Source of the DNA: Bacteroides faecis MAJ27
GTDB lineage: Bacteria; Bacteroidota; Bacteroidia; Bacteroidales; Bacteroidaceae
Direction: 5' to 3'
Length of the DNA stretch: 64,000 nt
Assembly: GCF_900106755.1 (NCBI RefSeq)
Contig: NZ_FNNN01000003.1
Coordinates: 186,001 to 250,000, forward strand
The notes beneath the pieces are model-generated. The model was not told the origin of the DNA. It made no database searches and was given only the letters and a program-made list of their open reading frames with translations. Positions 3,939 to 64,000 of this stretch are shown here, piece after piece (position 1 is the first letter of the stretch; every line of letters begins with the position of its first letter). The position numbers and the translations under genes were made by a program.

Positions 3939-5065
3939 AAGGATTATTCCTCATATTCCATGGTTTCGAAGCATTCAACGGAATCAGTAAAAAGATACGT
4001 TATCAAGTAAAAGCCCTCAAAGAATGCGGACTAGAAATGCATACGTGTTGGCTAGACGATACGGACAACCATAAACGCCGTATGGTAGATGAATCGATAA
4101 TCGCCGACTATGGTTTCGGGATCAAAGGAAAAATCCTAAAAAGAATCGAATTTGACAGTATCGTACATTATGTACAGAAAGAAAACATAGACTTTATCTA
4201 TGTACGCTATGTCCATAATGCCAGCCCTTTCAGCATACGGCTGATGAAACTACTAAAAAAGACCGGAGCACGTATAGTGATGGAAATCCCGACATATCCA
4301 TACGACCAAGAATATAAGGGACTCCCATTCGTATACCAACGAATCCTATTTATAGACAAATGTTTCCGACAGCATCTGGCACGCTATGTTGACAAGATCG
4401 TCACTTTTTCGGACTATGACATTATTTGGAATCGCCCCACCATCCGCATCTCAAATGGAATTGATTTCAGCGAAATCCCTTTAAGAGGTCCAAAGAATGA
4501 TACCGCACATTCTCTACAACTGATTGCCGTAGCGACAATGCACCCATGGCATGGTTTCGACAGAGTTATAGCCGGCATGGCAAATTACTATCGTACACAT
4601 ACGGACACTCATGATTATAAAGTATATCTCAATATCGTAGGCTTCGGGGTTCCCGAACTGGTGGACAGCTATAAAAAAGATGTAGCCAAACATCAGTTAG
4701 AGAAATATATCATCTTTCATAGTGCCTTATACGGCAAAGAACTGGATGCCGTGTTCGAGCAGTCGGACATGGGAATAGGCAGTCTGGCTCGCCATCGTAG
4801 CGGTATTGACAAAATCAAGACCTTAAAGAACCGTGAATATGCAGCAAGAGGCATTCCTTTTGTTTATTCAGAAACGGATGATGACTTTGAGCATCAGCCA
4901 TACATACTTAAGGCAGCACCGGACGATTCGCCCCTTGACATCGAAAAAGTAATCCGCTTTTATCAATCATTGAAAACAACGCCGCTCCAAATACGGATGT
5001 CTATAGAGCAATCACTTTCATGGAAAGCCCAGATGCAAATTGTTATTAATGAAACCTTTGAATGA
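3935..5065 (+). CDS. GT-B glycosyltransferase (GT4-like)
   Basis: 376 residues starting at the ATG of an ATGA overlap with the flippase gene. The N-terminal domain contains IDFIYVRYVHNASPF and GARIVMEIPTYPYDQEY; the C-terminal domain begins with LIAVATMHPWHGFDRVI, followed by LNIVGFGVPEL, FEQSDMGIGSL and KTLKNREYAARGIPFVYSE. The last is where GT4 enzymes carry the donor-binding E-x7-E pattern. Cytoplasmic or peripheral membrane, no signal peptide. From this gene through 10,716 the DNA is visibly richer in A and T than the genes at 10,754-14,744, consistent with an exchangeable polysaccharide cassette. Sugar specificity unknown. Confidence 0.8.
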   Translation: MKGLFLIFHGFEAFNGISKKIRYQVKALKECGLEMHTCWLDDTDNHKRRMVDESIIADYGFGIKGKILKRIEFDSIVHYVQKENIDFIYVRYVHNASPFSIRLMKLLKKTGARIVMEIPTYPYDQEYKGLPFVYQRILFIDKCFRQHLARYVDKIVTFSDYDIIWNRPTIRISNGIDFSEIPLRGPKNDTAHSLQLIAVATMHPWHGFDRVIAGMANYYRTHTDTHDYKVYLNIVGFGVPELVDSYKKDVAKHQLEKYIIFHSALYGKELDAVFEQSDMGIGSLARHRSGIDKIKTLKNREYAARGIPFVYSETDDDFEHQPYILKAAPDDSPLDIEKVIRFYQSLKTTPLQIRMSIEQSLSWKAQMQIVINETFE

Positions 5066-35697: not shown

Positions 35698-35911
35698 AGA
35701 CTAATCTGAAAAAACCGGTTGCTTTCAGATTATTTCTTTCCGTACAGAAATGAACTAAATTATAAATTGAGGATTAGGCACGGATTACACGGATTAACAC
35801 GGTTGTTTTACGTAATCATAGCACTAAAACCGTGAAATCCGTGTAATCCGTGCCTAAATATATTCTTTTCTGATTCGTATGGAGCTCAAACAGTTTTTGG
35901 AGACTGCCCCT
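35698..35911. mobile_element. MITE-like hairpin element, copy 1
   Basis: About 210 bases without an open frame. The core 35,747-35,870 matches 52,156-52,280 almost base for base (one substitution and a small difference in the right arm). Within the core, a perfect 21-bp inverted repeat (35,775-35,795 with 35,836-35,856, core GGCACGGATTACACGG) forms a long hairpin. The outer ends (AATCTGAAAAAACCGGTT on the left; the complement of CAGTTTTTGGAGACT on the right) are imperfect inverted repeats. Non-autonomous transposable elements look like this; no transposase is in the window. Boundaries are approximate. Confidence 0.65.
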
Positions 35912-36012
35912 TTTAAACAGGTATGAACGAATCTCCCATGCAAGGATGAATCAAACTTCTATTAAAGTATTCTACATACAAGTTATGATGGCTCCACATA
36001 CGGACCGAATTC

Positions 36013-36122
36013 TGTAAGCTCGGAGATGAAGGCTACTCACCACCGAGATGAAAGTAGCTCACCACCGAGGTGAAAGTAGCTCACCACCGAGGTGAAAATT
36101 ACTCACCACCGAGATGAGGATG
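36013..36122. repeat. Tandem array of 22-bp units, TCACC-ACCGA-RGTGA type
   Basis: Four good units start at 36,035, 36,057, 36,079 and 36,101, preceded by a degenerate one at 36,013; the period is exactly 22 bp. Each unit holds the core CTCACCACCGAGRTGA, itself a small inverted repeat (TCACC/GGTGA around ACCGA), followed by 6-7 variable bases. It ends about 100 bases before the -7 box of the next gene. 22 is not a multiple of three and no reading frame is present, so it is not coding. Confidence 0.8.
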
Positions 36123-36220
36123 ACGCAGAAATGAACAAAAATCAACGGCTGATTCGCTTAAATAACAAAAAACGATGGGTAAAAAAAGTTATATACTCTA
36201 TTTTACTCAGAGTTATTTGT

Positions 36221-42993: not shown

Positions 42994-43000
42994 AATATGT

Positions 43001-43168
43001 AAGTATTAAGTTTTAAGTATTAAGTATTAGCTCAAGTAATAAGCAATATATAGTATCAAGTAATAAGTAATAGATAATAAGTAACAACGTCAACCACGAT
43101 GACAAATCAGCCAGCAGCTACGATTAATACTTAATACTTATTACTTAATACCTGTTACCTATTACTTA
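43001..43168. repeat. AAGTATTAAGTA-type repeats between cydA and cydB
   Basis: The spacer is filled with variants of AAGTATTAAGTA and AAGTAATAAGTAATA. The left block (43,001-43,085) and the right block (43,123-43,168) are in inverted orientation and can pair over about 28 bases with few mismatches, leaving a 37-base GC-richer loop. Short copies of the same motif occur at 35,448-35,468, 48,629-48,650 and 50,962-50,976, all between genes. The right block overlaps the final codons of cydA. Confidence 0.7.
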
Positions 43169-51800: not shown

Positions 51801-51807
51801 CAACGAA

Positions 51808-51917
51808 CAGAAAGGGATTGTGAAATTCCAAGAATAGAATAGTTTAGTTAAGTCTAGTTTAGTTTTTGTGTTGAGTGCTTCCTCGTCGGCGGACGAACAA
51901 GGAAGCACTTTTTTATT
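51808..51917 (+). ncRNA. Candidate small RNA of about 110 nt
   Basis: The stretch is bounded by a full consensus promoter and a strong intrinsic terminator, with a predicted start about eight bases after the -7 box. It has no ATG-led frame. The body is AT-rich, with TAGTTTAGTTAAGTCTAG-like repeats and a possibly unpaired region rich in T and A that could base-pair with targets. Nothing in it resembles 6S, tmRNA, RNase P or SRP RNA. It may be an independent sRNA or a leader fragment; the following gene is over 400 bases away. From 51,918 to 52,108 I see nothing beyond AT-rich sequence. Confidence 0.6.
51874..51917 (+). terminator. Terminator of the candidate small RNA
   Basis: A 10-bp stem (AGTGCTTCCT, 51,874-51,883 with 51,900-51,909), extended by CGTC/GACG beyond a 4-base bulge, capped by GGCG and followed by a run of six to seven T. 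Confidence 0.85.
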
Positions 51918-52108: not shown

Positions 52109-52320
52109 GATCAATCCGAACCCCCGGTTGTTTTCAGTTTGCTTCTTTCTGTACGGAAATGAACTAAATTATAAATTGAGGATTAGGCACGGATTACACG
52201 GATTAACACGGTTGTTTTACGTAATCATAGCACTAAAACCGTGTTAATCCGTGTAATCCGTGCCTAAATATATTCTTTTCCGTACAGTATGCAGTTCAAA
52301 CAGGGTTTTCAGACTGATCC
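52109..52320. mobile_element. MITE-like hairpin element, copy 2
   Basis: About 210 bases. The core (52,156-52,280) is nearly identical to the copy at 35,747-35,870. A perfect 28-bp inverted repeat (52,184-52,211 with 52,239-52,266) makes a long hairpin. The outer ends are imperfect inverted repeats: GGATCAATCCGAACCCCC on the left pairs with the complement of GGTTTTCAGACTGATCC on the right. No transposase and no open frame. No clear target-site duplication is visible. The right end stops about 25 bases before the SRAP start codon, so the element may influence that gene. Confidence 0.7.
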
Positions 52321-60804: not shown

Positions 60805-60874
60805 ACACGGATTACTCCGATTATGCGCATCTTACATCTAAAATGAAGATCGTTTTAATCAGCGTAATCCGTGT
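60805..60874. repeat. Hairpin repeat between gmd and fcl, related to the MITE core
   Basis: ACACGGATTACTCCGATT (60,805-60,822) and AATCAGCGTAATCCGTGT (60,857-60,874) are inverted repeats with two mismatches. The arm sequence is the same CACGGATTAC motif found in the arms at 35,775 and 52,184, while the flanks and loop differ. The loop sides GCGCATCTT and AAGATCGT can pair further. It ends 22 bases before the fcl start codon, so it lies in the gmd-fcl message. Confidence 0.65.
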
Positions 60875-60896
60875 TCATATATATCATTACTCAATC

Positions 60897-61967
60897 ATGG
60901 AAAAGAATGCTAAAATATATGTAGCAGGACATCACGGACTGGTGGGGTCTGCTATCTGGAAGAATTTGCAGGACAAAGGATATACCAACCTGATCGGACG
61001 CACGCATAAAGAGCTGGATTTGCTGGATGGTGTGGCTGTCCGCCGTTTTTTCGACGAAGAACAACCGGAGTATGTATTTCTGGCCGCTGCTTTTGTGGGC
61101 GGTATCATGGCCAACAGCATTTACCGTGCCGACTTTATTTATAAGAACCTGCAAATACAGCAGAACGTTATCGGTGAAAGTTTCCGCCATAACGTCAAGA
61201 AGTTACTGTTTCTCGGCAGCACCTGCATCTATCCGCGCGATGCCGGACAACCGATGAAAGAGGAAGTCCTGCTGACTTCACCACTGGAATATACGAATGA
61301 GCCATACGCCATCGCCAAAATTGCCGGTCTGAAAATGTGCGAAAGTTTCAACCTGCAATACGGCACGAATTATATCGCTGTCATGCCGACCAATCTGTAC
61401 GGTCCGAATGATAACTTCGACTTGGAACGCAGCCATGTTCTGCCTGCCATGATCCGCAAGATTCACCTTGCGCATTGTCTGAAGGAAGGAGATTGGGAAG
61501 CTGTCCGCAAGGATATGAACCGACGTCCCGTAGAAGGCATCAACGGCGACAGCCCGAAAGAGGACATACTGAATATCCTTCGCAAGTACGGCATCAGTGA
61601 CACGGAAGTAACATTGTGGGGCACCGGCACTCCCCTGCGCGAATTTTTGTGGAGCGAAGAAATGGCCGACGCCAGTGTATTCGTAATGGAACATGTGGAC
61701 TTCAAGGATACCTATAAGGAAGGTGACAAGGATATCCGCAACTGCCATATCAACATCGGAACCGGAAAGGAAATCACCATCCGCCAACTTGCCGAACGAA
61801 TCGTAGAAACGGTAGGTTATCAAGGCAAGCTAACCTTCGACAGCAGCAAACCGGACGGCACCCTGCGCAAACTGACCGATCCTTCCAAACTCCACTCCCT
61901 GGGATGGCACCACCAAATTGAAATTGAGGAAGGGGTACGGAAAATGTACGAATGGTACTTGAAATAG
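60897..61967 (+). CDS. fcl: GDP-L-fucose synthase
   Basis: 356 residues from the ATG at 60,897. An 18-residue upstream extension reads through the hairpin repeat and is rejected because the nucleotide motif VAGHHGLVGSAIW should lie near the N-terminus. Catalytic set: SSTCIYP-type segment GSTCIYPRDAGQPMKEE, Tyr-x3-Lys in PYAIAKIAGLKMCE, and PTNLYGPNDNFDL. It catalyses 3,5-epimerisation and NADPH-dependent 4-reduction, forming GDP-L-fucose. Longer than E. coli Fcl because of an insertion around residues 205-235 (MNRRPVEGINGDSPKEDI), seen in Bacteroidetes homologues as I recall. Confidence 0.95.
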   Translation: MEKNAKIYVAGHHGLVGSAIWKNLQDKGYTNLIGRTHKELDLLDGVAVRRFFDEEQPEYVFLAAAFVGGIMANSIYRADFIYKNLQIQQNVIGESFRHNVKKLLFLGSTCIYPRDAGQPMKEEVLLTSPLEYTNEPYAIAKIAGLKMCESFNLQYGTNYIAVMPTNLYGPNDNFDLERSHVLPAMIRKIHLAHCLKEGDWEAVRKDMNRRPVEGINGDSPKEDILNILRKYGISDTEVTLWGTGTPLREFLWSEEMADASVFVMEHVDFKDTYKEGDKDIRNCHINIGTGKEITIRQLAERIVETVGYQGKLTFDSSKPDGTLRKLTDPSKLHSLGWHHQIEIEEGVRKMYEWYLK

Positions 61968-61987
61968 ATCTACTATCAGACTCACAT

Positions 61988-62075
61988 CATGCATTGGTAA
62001 TGTCCGTAACATGCATTGTGAATCATCATATCATGCATTGTGAACGACACTAACAAGCATTGATAACTCCCCTGC
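61988..62075. repeat. Tandem array of 22-bp units, CATGCATTG type
   Basis: Four units start at 61,988, 62,010, 62,032 and 62,054 with exact 22-bp spacing. The constant part is CATGCATTG (last copy CAAGCATTG), often followed by TGAA; the remaining 9-13 bases vary. It lies about 20 bases after the fcl stop. No reading frame, and the period excludes coding repeats. Confidence 0.75.
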
Positions 62076-62093
62076 CTTCCAGTGAGTACAACT

Positions 62094-62203
62094 GTGCCAT
62101 ACGCCGGAAACAATCGTGCCACACGCCGGAAACGCTTGTGCCACCGGCTTGGCACGGTTATGCCATCGGTGCGGCACACTTGTGCCAAAGGCGTGGCACA
62201 CCC
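62094..62203. repeat. Tandem array of 22-bp units, GTGCCA/GGCAC type
   Basis: Five units start at 62,094, 62,116, 62,138, 62,160 and 62,182, again exactly 22 bp apart. Each begins GTGCCA (one ATGCCA); three continue to GGCAC, giving small hairpins GTGCC/GGCAC around about six bases. Units one and two share CGCCGGAAAC instead. The rest of the 394-base gap before the acyl-CoA synthetase holds the other array and a promoter. Confidence 0.8.
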
Positions 62204-62323
62204 CTTTTGCGCTTATCCCCGTTCCTCTTCTCCTTAACTTCCTCATCTTTGTTCCTTATTACTCCAAGACTCCCCATTTCCAAAAATTCTTCATTCTTAA
62301 TTCTTCATTCTTAATTTAATTAC

Positions 62324-62331
62324 TATATTTG
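62324..62331 (+). promoter_or_regulatory. -7 box for the acyl-CoA synthetase gene
   Basis: TATATTTG, exact TAnnTTTG, 30 bases before the ATG at 62,362. Confidence 0.6.
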
Positions 62332-62361
62332 CACAATTTAATACCAAATGTGCAAAAAACA

Positions 62362-64000
62362 ATGGAACAGAGTTTTATAGCTTACATTGAGAATAGTATC
62401 AAGAACAATTGGGACCTGGACGCCCTGACAGATTACAAGGGGGCCACCCTTCAGTATAAAGACGTTGCTCGAAAAATCGAAAAACTCCATATCATCTTCG
62501 AAGAAAGCGGAATCCGCAAGGGAGACAAAATCGCCGTGTGCGGACGAAACAGTTCCCATTGGGGAGTCACCTTCCTCGCCACACTAACGTATGGAGCAGT
62601 CATCGTCCCCATCCTTCACGAGTTCAAAGCGGACAATGTGCACAACATCGTCAACCATTCCGAGGCCAAATTACTATTTGTCGGAGACATGGTCTGGGAA
62701 AACCTGAACGAATCGGCAATGCCTCTGCTGGAAGGTATCCTGATGATGAACGACTTCACCTTATTGGTATCGCGCAGCGAACGGCTGACACATGCCCGCG
62801 AACATCTGAACGAAATGTTCGGCAAGAAATATCCGAAGAACTTCCGCAAGGAACACATCGAATACCATAAAGACGAGCCCGAAGAGCTGGCAGTAATCAA
62901 CTACACCTCCGGCACAACGAGCTACTCGAAAGGAGTCATGCTCCCCTACCGCAGCCTCTGGTCGAACACCAAGTTCGCTTACGAAGTACTCGAACTGAAA
63001 GCCGGAGACAAGATCGTCTCTATGCTGCCTATGGCACACATGTACGGACTGGCTTTCGAATTCCTCTACGAATTCTCCGTCGGTGGCCACATTTATTTCC
63101 TTACCCGCATGCCGAGTCCGAAGATTATCTTCCAGGCATTCGAAGAAGTGAAGCCGAATCTCATCGTGGCCGTTCCGCTCATCATTGAAAAAATCATCAA
63201 GAAGAGTGTGCTCCCGAAACTGGAGACACCGACCATGAAAATCTTACTGAAAGTCCCCATCATCAACGACAAGATAAAGGCAACCATACGCGAAGAAATG
63301 ATCAAAGCGTTTGGCGGTAACTTTGCGGAGATTATCGTTGGTGGAGCAGCTTTCAACCAAGAGGTAGAGCAATTCCTGAAAATGATAGACTTCCCCTACA
63401 CCGTGGGCTACGGTATGACAGAATGTGGGCCGATCATCTGCTACGAAGACTGGAAAAGATTCAAACCGGGTTCGTGCGGAAAGGCTGCGCCACGCATGGA
63501 TGTACGGGTACTGTCTTCCGATCCCGAGAATATCGTCGGCGAAATCGTCTGCAAAGGCCCTAACGTAATGCTCGGATACTACAAGAACGAAGAAGCGACA
63601 GAAGCCGTGATCGACAAAGACGGCTGGCTGCACACAGGCGACCTTGCTTTGATGGACGCCGAAGGCAATATCACCATCAAGGGACGCAGCAAAAACCTGC
63701 TGCTGAGTGCCAGCGGACAGAATATCTATCCGGAAGAAATCGAAGACAAGCTGAACAACTTGCCTTATGTATCGGAAAGCATCATCGTACAGCAGAACGA
63801 GAAACTCGTCGGACTGGTTTATCCGGACTTTGACGAAGCGTTTGCACACGGTCTGAAGAATGAGGATATCGAACGGGTAATGGAAGAAAACCGTGTGACA
63901 CTGAATGCCATGTTACCGGCATACAGCCAGATCCTCAAAATGAAGATTTATCCCGAAGAGTTTGAAAAGACTCCGAAGAAGAGTATCAAACGCTATCTGT
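62362..64000 (+). CDS. Long-chain acyl-CoA synthetase (AMP-binding), truncated by the window end
   Basis: 546 residues are visible with no stop before the window ends. ANL-superfamily adenylating enzyme: P-loop VINYTSGTTSYSKGVMLPY, the AMP-binding VGYGMTECGPIICYED, KDGWLHTGDLALMDAEGNI with the ribose-binding Asp, and hinge plus C-domain FIKGRSKNLLL-like segment TIKGRSKNLLLSASGQNI. The catalytic Lys of the C-domain is probably in KTPKKSIKRYL at the very edge. It would activate fatty acids as acyl-AMP then acyl-CoA. Close relatives include O-succinylbenzoate ligases, but length and the insertion at residues 130-175 favour a long-chain type. Confidence 0.92.
   Translation, partial: MEQSFIAYIENSIKNNWDLDALTDYKGATLQYKDVARKIEKLHIIFEESGIRKGDKIAVCGRNSSHWGVTFLATLTYGAVIVPILHEFKADNVHNIVNHSEAKLLFVGDMVWENLNESAMPLLEGILMMNDFTLLVSRSERLTHAREHLNEMFGKKYPKNFRKEHIEYHKDEPEELAVINYTSGTTSYSKGVMLPYRSLWSNTKFAYEVLELKAGDKIVSMLPMAHMYGLAFEFLYEFSVGGHIYFLTRMPSPKIIFQAFEEVKPNLIVAVPLIIEKIIKKSVLPKLETPTMKILLKVPIINDKIKATIREEMIKAFGGNFAEIIVGGAAFNQEVEQFLKMIDFPYTVGYGMTECGPIICYEDWKRFKPGSCGKAAPRMDVRVLSSDPENIVGEIVCKGPNVMLGYYKNEEATEAVIDKDGWLHTGDLALMDAEGNITIKGRSKNLLLSASGQNIYPEEIEDKLNNLPYVSESIIVQQNEKLVGLVYPDFDEAFAHGLKNEDIERVMEENRVTLNAMLPAYSQILKMKIYPEEFEKTPKKSIKRYL

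Follow-up and report, generated by a model that had tools for sequence, protein, structure and literature searches.

REP and BIME sequences lie outside genes, are palindromic, alternate in orientation and prefer 3' ends to the space between divergent genes; in enterobacteria, REP sequences sit in 3' UTRs. An intrinsic terminator combines a stem with a U-tract behind it. Satellites of constant repeat size were the subject of a 2020 article by Subirana and Messeguer in J. Bacteriol., which reportedly names lengths of 22 and 44 nt. The BrickBuilt MITE belongs to Porphyromonas gingivalis, a member of the same order as the bacterium studied here. The accessible parts of the work of Subirana and Messeguer describe bacterial satellites whose repeats vary in sequence and keep one size, 20-23 nt in many groups and 52 nt in Firmicutes, and whose function is given as unknown (PMC8161180; PMC8625621; PMC6749651). 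The authors suggested, in the same accessible text, proteins polymerising on DNA, or small RNAs (PMC8161180). The words 'bacteroid' and 'palindrom' have 0 occurrences in the text of PMC8161180. For P. gingivalis, the accessible text reports 22- and 23-nt repeats, the 22-nt ones in strain W83, as well as BrickBuilt, an intergenic MITE of tandem 23-nt bricks (1 to 22.8 of them, 19 copies in one genome) with a leader and a tail carrying IS5-like terminal repeats (PMC4596501).

Here we describe mirrored arrays of period 22, named after their half-site word TGCCA, and place them among these systems. An earlier note on the same DNA had proposed an undescribed class of repeats. At the level of the class this does not stand, because constant-size satellites of 20-23 nt (PMC8161180) and 22- and 23-nt repeats of P. 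gingivalis (PMC4596501) are already described in the accessible parts of these publications. As far as those descriptions go, the arrays share with constant-size satellites a single repeat length, several word families per genome and the lack of a known function. They differ from them in having mirrored half-sites every 11 bp at period 22, mostly eight, in their 3'-end position and in the swapping of words from locus to locus. They resemble the accessible description of BrickBuilt as short tandem units that are intergenic and present in many copies in one genome. Like REP and BIME sequences, TGCCA arrays are palindromic, alternating and extragenic, and lie at 3' ends (0 of 41 loci between divergent genes), whereas their unit is much smaller, the words differ per array and the source genome has no Y1/RAYT match. 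Like intrinsic terminators, they provide stable stems at gene ends, and they are symmetric for both strands; unlike them, most arrays have no U-tract beyond them, and the word itself is conserved.

The window, i.e. the whole 64,000-nt stretch of the Bacteroides faecis MAJ27 genome under analysis, holds the following features. Gene calls are ORFs with ATG starts, and gene names were assigned by eye.

62095-62198, no strand: window array as read from the sequence, ten 5-bp half-sites at an 11-bp step with N6 spacers and alternating orientation
62095-62132, no strand: mixed units 1-2, TGCCA-N6-GGAAA twice, with GGAAA occupying the TGGCA register
62139-62198, no strand: palindromic units 3-5, TGCCA-N6-TGGCA, with CGGCA ending unit 4
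61982-62073, no strand: adjacent 22-bp array with another word (CATGCATTG...), also in the relative G082; dyad p 0.72, not significant
36011-36135, no strand: third 22-bp array of the window, word TCACC/GGTGA; dyad p 0.06
60843-61967, + strand: upstream gene, GDP-L-fucose synthase-like by its sequence; stop 127 bp before the array
62362-63999, running off the window, + strand: downstream gene, AMP-binding acyl-CoA ligase-like by its sequence; start 163 bp past the array

The units are exactly 22 bp long and span ~62088 to 62202, and the half-sites read, in order, TGCCA, GGAAA, TGCCA, GGAAA, TGCCA, TGGCA, TGCCA, CGGCA, TGCCA, TGGCA. Tandem Repeats Finder gives the array as two rows (62088-62144 and 62135-62201), and a scan of the window at periods 15-44 returned 22, its double 44 and one segment at 36. 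The window array is beyond chance: a 400-kb genome sample, shuffled five times in blocks of 3-mers, gave no hit at any period from 12 to 60 at the unbiased scan's threshold. Half-site reading and period scan agree with the five units of exactly 22 bp reported in the earlier note, with CGCCGGAAAC common to the first two (TGCCA-N6-GGAAA, twice) and with the palindromic character of the last three, one of which has a single base changed. Its description of units evolving along the array is better replaced by another word at two half-sites in the same register. The three arrays of one period that it counted in 64 kb are all found again, those at 61982-62073 and 36011-36135 being real as well.

Unlike BrickBuilt as described in the accessible text, the window array has period 22, not 23, and no inverted pair flanks it within 61900-62420. 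No terminator-like site was found at the array; near it there are four such sites against 1.7 expected, all inside the upstream gene, and three promoter-like sites against 2.7 expected. An Rfam search at gathering scores (the window and eight array loci) gave no match over the array. Its only matches, a tRNA and BTnc049, both lie elsewhere in the window, the latter, a Bacteroides sRNA, at 51807-51915 on the + strand (E 2.4e-18). The window also contains A+T-rich 7-bp tandem repeats at 43000-43168 (TAAGTAT, TTAATAC), a 14-bp repeat AATTCTTCATTCTT at 62285-62316, just upstream of the ligase gene and kept in G082, and an intergenic hairpin-like repeat around CACGGATTAA / AGGCACGGATTACACGGAT at 35779-35852 and 52188-52262, found again at 4618-4706 of locus L044.

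The source genome (G000) shows the same rhythm on a larger scale. A sample of 464 kb, made of the window and 20 stretches of 20 kb drawn from long contigs known to bear TGCCA arrays elsewhere, contains 16 arrays of period 22 built on many words, and no other basic period between 12 and 60 has more than one array; eight arrays recur at 44, the double of 22. These counts leave out segments with strong periods below 12. Without the window there are 13 period-22 arrays in 400 kb, which extrapolates to ~190 per genome. By these numbers the source genome has the constant repeat size of the published satellites, which is less clear in G025: there, 120 kb gave two arrays at 22, two at 44 and one each at 18, 23, 24, 33, 36, 46 and 54. 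In G029 (140 kb) we found one array at 21 (also at 42 and 43), in G067 (140 kb) one at 27 and three at 22, one of which is overlapped by a further array at 23, and in 12 genomes of other families (154 kb) one each at 22, 42 and 51. The dominance of period 22 is thus clear in the source genome, and less so in the small samples of the others. Dyad symmetry reaches p < 0.05 in 21 of 32 array calls at periods 21-23 (slightly lower threshold) and does not in 11, which include the window arrays at 61982-62073 and 36011-36135. A second word has the same layout, GTTYCA-N6-TGRAAC-N4, with 42 matches in the source genome at up to 2 mismatches; it is present in 10 of 61 genomes, all within the genus. One genome can therefore hold several word families (TGCCA, GTTYCA and others). 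A GTTCCACC array lies ~3 kb from a Y1-type transposase gene at G017:C14:3605-7026 and at G030:C14:267059-270229, perhaps a RAYT with its own repeats.

For the TGCCA word, a three-site pattern with the same spacing gave 67 matches in the source genome and its reversed control none. The arrays occupy at least 23 places there, which disposes of the doubt, raised in the earlier note, that similar arrays might be absent elsewhere in the genome. The class that it had sketched, with constant words and variable linkers, extends genome-wide, is mostly intergenic and is also found in relatives. We studied 41 loci: that of the window, 22 further ones of the source genome, eight of G029 and ten of G021. 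Six paralogous loci were dropped from the element statistics, which use 35 of the 41. The standard element consists of four TGCCA-N6-TGGCA units joined by N6, the joint often being CAACTG or CAGTTG; with its arms, a unit reads TGTGCCA-N6-TGGCACA plus two bases. Most TGCCA arrays are made of four units of equal length. Exactly eight half-sites occur in 28 of the 35 non-paralogous elements (three species), the others having 4 (one element), 6 (two), 10 (three) or 12 (one); loci were found by patterns of three or four half-sites, so that shorter elements are under-sampled and lengths above eight are unaffected. The word TGCCA is perfect in 249 of the 282 half-sites of these 35 elements. Against this standard, the window array is long, with its ten half-sites, and partly changed. 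With two half-sites altered, it may be a weakened member.

Searched with four half-sites and up to 2 mismatches, 13 of 61 genomes match, namely the source genome and 12 of the 36 others of its genus (two of these 12 with a single match each); none of the 24 genomes from other families does. Across 295 genomes of the order and with at most 1 mismatch, matches are confined to the source genome and two of the three members of one other family (G163 and G262); in this draw, the third member of that family and the two other members of the genus gave none. All three elements read in G163 have eight half-sites, and G262 has seven elements with 8 to 10. A phage origin was considered and rejected, with 0 exact TGCCA-array matches in viral contigs. 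In a Prevotella MAG, three hairpins with the TGTGCCA word start 34 bases past a stop codon and are followed by TTTTC (L021, 6842-6910); the second and third pair with each other. Eight source-genome arrays are flanked by inverted-repeat copies of ~120 bp (ATTGTCATCTGTCAGC...) within a repeated element of ~0.6-0.75 kb or more, possibly a MITE carrying the array:

L044 4840-5434, and L047, L059, L051, L052, L054, L057, L060: arrays between ~120-bp inverted repeats

The TGCCA arrays lie mostly at the 3' ends of genes. The 41 loci of three species comprise 20 convergent, 21 codirectional and 0 divergent contexts, and the array overlaps a called ORF at five of them (L057, L060, L075, L076, L077). 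Without the eight element-borne loci, 17 of 33 are convergent, 16 codirectional and none divergent. As background, samples of G000, G029, G025 and G067 gave 241 intergenic regions no shorter than 120 bp, of which 131 are codirectional, 66 divergent and 44 convergent; against it, the 33 loci lack divergent contexts (P = 2.6e-5) and are enriched in convergent ones (P = 1.6e-5). At codirectional loci the array is closer to the upstream stop in 12 of 14 usable cases (p 0.006; the eight element-borne loci dropped). Some convergent gaps consist almost wholly of the array, which together with 6-18 bases on either side fills the space between two stop codons: 8+82+6 nt (L072), 8+82+18 (L233) and 6+82+14 (L235). 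The ten loci in the other family are five convergent, four codirectional and one divergent. When all words in the samples are taken together, there are 24 distinct contexts: 12 codirectional, 6 convergent and 2 divergent, with 3 more in a called ORF and 1 at an edge.

Our preferred reading, to which we would give somewhat less than an even chance, is that the array offers phased half-sites to a putative word-specific DNA-binding protein, forming a platform that insulates gene ends or stops transcription in both directions. Each TGTGCCA-N6-TGGCACA unit would bind one dimer, and the 11-bp step would bring successive half-sites near the same helix face, so that four dimers could line up. A loaded array 3' of genes, above all between converging genes, would then stop or insulate transcription from both sides, and different arrays and species would use the same layout with different words. 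We infer the protein, its binding and its transcriptional effect from the fixed eight-site geometry, the conservation of half-sites relative to N6 and the 3' position. No binding protein for the arrays was identified. The complementary loops and links and the stable folds, which also fit an RNA role, count against the platform, as does the divergent locus in the other family.

The first alternative is an RNA 3'-end element, which we regard as possible, if rather unlikely. Here the transcribed array would form four short hairpins, or one long imperfect one, and end, protect or process the mRNA on either strand; the comparison is with the REP sequences of 3' UTRs. The 3' position suits this reading. 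Just 2 of 40 array-facing gene ends have a canonical terminator in the gap that separates the stop codon from the array (many of these gaps are too short for one), so that the array is probably transcribed. Single elements make very stable RNA folds, with z scores of -6.6, -7.4 and -9.6 for three members outside the window, all stronger than that of the window copy (z -2.8). In 28 elements with eight half-sites, six paralogous loci being left out, complementarity exceeds that of shuffles for loops 1-4 (p 0.0055), loops 1-3 (p 0.014) and links 1-3 (p 0.0075; nine pair tests, uncorrected). The Prevotella hairpins, three of the same word shortly past a stop and followed by a short T-run, also agree with an RNA element.

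Other tests of pairing and folding go against this RNA element. Loops 2-3 are not complementary in the same 28 elements, and one long conserved hairpin was rejected for this reason. A conserved RNA fold was rejected too, RNAfold of the 28 elements showing no common structure by eye, and shuffling N6 from element to element leaves the mean fold energy about as good (p 0.1). Watson-Crick closure of the loops is avoided, with 24 cases against 52 expected. A single changed half-site occurs in 33 of 141 hairpin pairs and a double change in none, hence no compensated pair, although just 1.9 double changes would be expected by chance (P of none 0.15); their lack is weak support for the reading of a word over pairing. 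One of 106 link pairs has two changes, and these are uncompensated. Many half-site changes, e.g. TGACA and TGCCT, disrupt pairing on both strands. The half-site changes and the avoidance of loop closure lean towards a word that is read in duplex DNA. Hairpins, moreover, do not need an exact 22-nt step, and of 33 loci, tested on one side and without the eight element-borne ones, 2 have TTTT in the 25 nt after the array. A further comparison bears on the protein platform. Canonical terminators within 160 nt are rarer at array-bearing gene ends (10 of 47, against 48 of 101; p 0.002). Over a fairer range of 260 nt the significance is lost (13 of 40, compared with 48 of 101; p 0.13), and the split gives 4 of 19 for the source genome (p 0.04) and 9 of 21 for the other two genomes (p 0.8). 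All these counts exclude the eight loci, and since the effect is significant at 160 nt and not at 260 nt, the case for arrays replacing canonical terminators is weak.

The second alternative, which we rate slightly below the RNA element, is a selfish or neutral satellite without host function, in which slippage, fold-back synthesis or gene conversion would make mirrored 22-bp arrays where they are least harmful, i.e. at gene ends. The history of individual loci, where arrays are present, absent or changed in word between relatives, is in its favour. Both genes of the fucose synthase-ligase locus occur in 20 of 30 loci, 8 of which have an array of period 21 or 22 as well. In G082, the nearest relative found, the first array is there and the TGCCA array is missing, with a clean alignment gap at which no target duplication is visible. 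The same gap holds 21-bp arrays, one base shorter in period than in the source genome, with words like TTTAGCTATAATGATA or ATAGCATATC in G011, G008, G067 and G020 (L081-L084), and 22-bp arrays with a third word in G066 and G070. At 12 other loci we sought the neighbouring gene in G082, G011 and G020; a single flanking gene was matched, so that an 'absent' array could reflect rearrangement. L050 and L055 had no clear match, and L045 had a weak one in G082 only. The TGCCA array is absent from every relative found at L039, L041, L042, L043, L046 and L049, and from all three relatives at L040, where G020 has a 22-bp array with TTCTCA/TGAGAA. The array of L053 is present in G082 and G011 and not in G020, that of L056 in G011 and G020. 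Arrays thus come and go at single loci between close relatives, which implies that no such locus strictly needs one. The eight arrays inside the inverted-repeat element also fit a satellite, as does the recurrence of identical N6 spacers, above null, in unrelated arrays of the same genome and of different ones; if arrays exchange units, their words could stay similar with no strong selection behind them.

Conservation of the words, however, speaks against a satellite of this kind. When arrays shared by relatives are compared in register, 2-5 of the 40 half-site positions have changed, against 9-24 of the 42 positions in the interleaved N6. The difference has a Fisher p below 0.005 in six comparisons and of 0.07 in one; these seven pairwise comparisons come from three locus sets and are not independent. 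The arrays of L045 (source genome) and L063 (G029) lie ~60 bases past the stops of related genes (66% over 144 aa) and differ at 2 of 40 half-site positions and 22 of 42 N6 positions, possibly as an old shared array. This is the sole close pair when flanking genes are compared across the 41 loci (proteins of at least 130 aa), the other matches being remote (24-36%). Against an array near its locus in G082, whose flank matches weakly (68%) and which was left out of the tests, L045 has 35 of 40 half-site positions equal in either orientation; for N6, 14 of 42 positions agree one way round and 23 of 42 the other way round. The constancy of eight half-sites in most TGCCA elements and the occurrence of the TGCCA word in a second family of the order likewise argue against a satellite. 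Spread as a REP/BIME-type element by a RAYT (Y1-type) transposase is disfavoured and very improbable: the arrays are extragenic palindromes of alternating orientation at 3' ends, and a Y1_Tnp match exists in three genomes with TGCCA arrays (G011, G030, G036), but there is none in the source genome (PF01797, E 0.001) or in the array-rich G003, G008, G020, G021, G029 and G031.

In the literature searched, with subscription papers mostly uncovered, we found no account for Bacteroidales of half-sites mirrored every 11 bp, of their number of eight, of the location at 3' ends or of the word change. The 22-base rhythm belongs to a known, little-understood class; what looks new is the layout, the place at gene ends and the way in which words are swapped from one species to another. 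The window array is a real, well-ordered member of that known, unexplained class, and its features suggest that gene ends are bound in a sequence-specific way. The protein platform can be carried further, as a speculation that we think unlikely. Bacteroidales would have a dedicated gene-end system whose mirrored half-sites, frequently numbering exactly eight, follow an 11-bp lattice; each word would be read by its own member of a DNA-binding family and give a two-sided stop or insulation; words and proteins would turn over while lattice and position stay. Constant-size satellites are puzzling in that they have one repeat length, no common sequence and no known function. With their layout, their place at gene ends and words that are kept while spacers drift, the TGCCA arrays offer a tractable case that makes this puzzle testable, and the gene-end system, if true, would be the first function for the constant-size satellites of bacteria.
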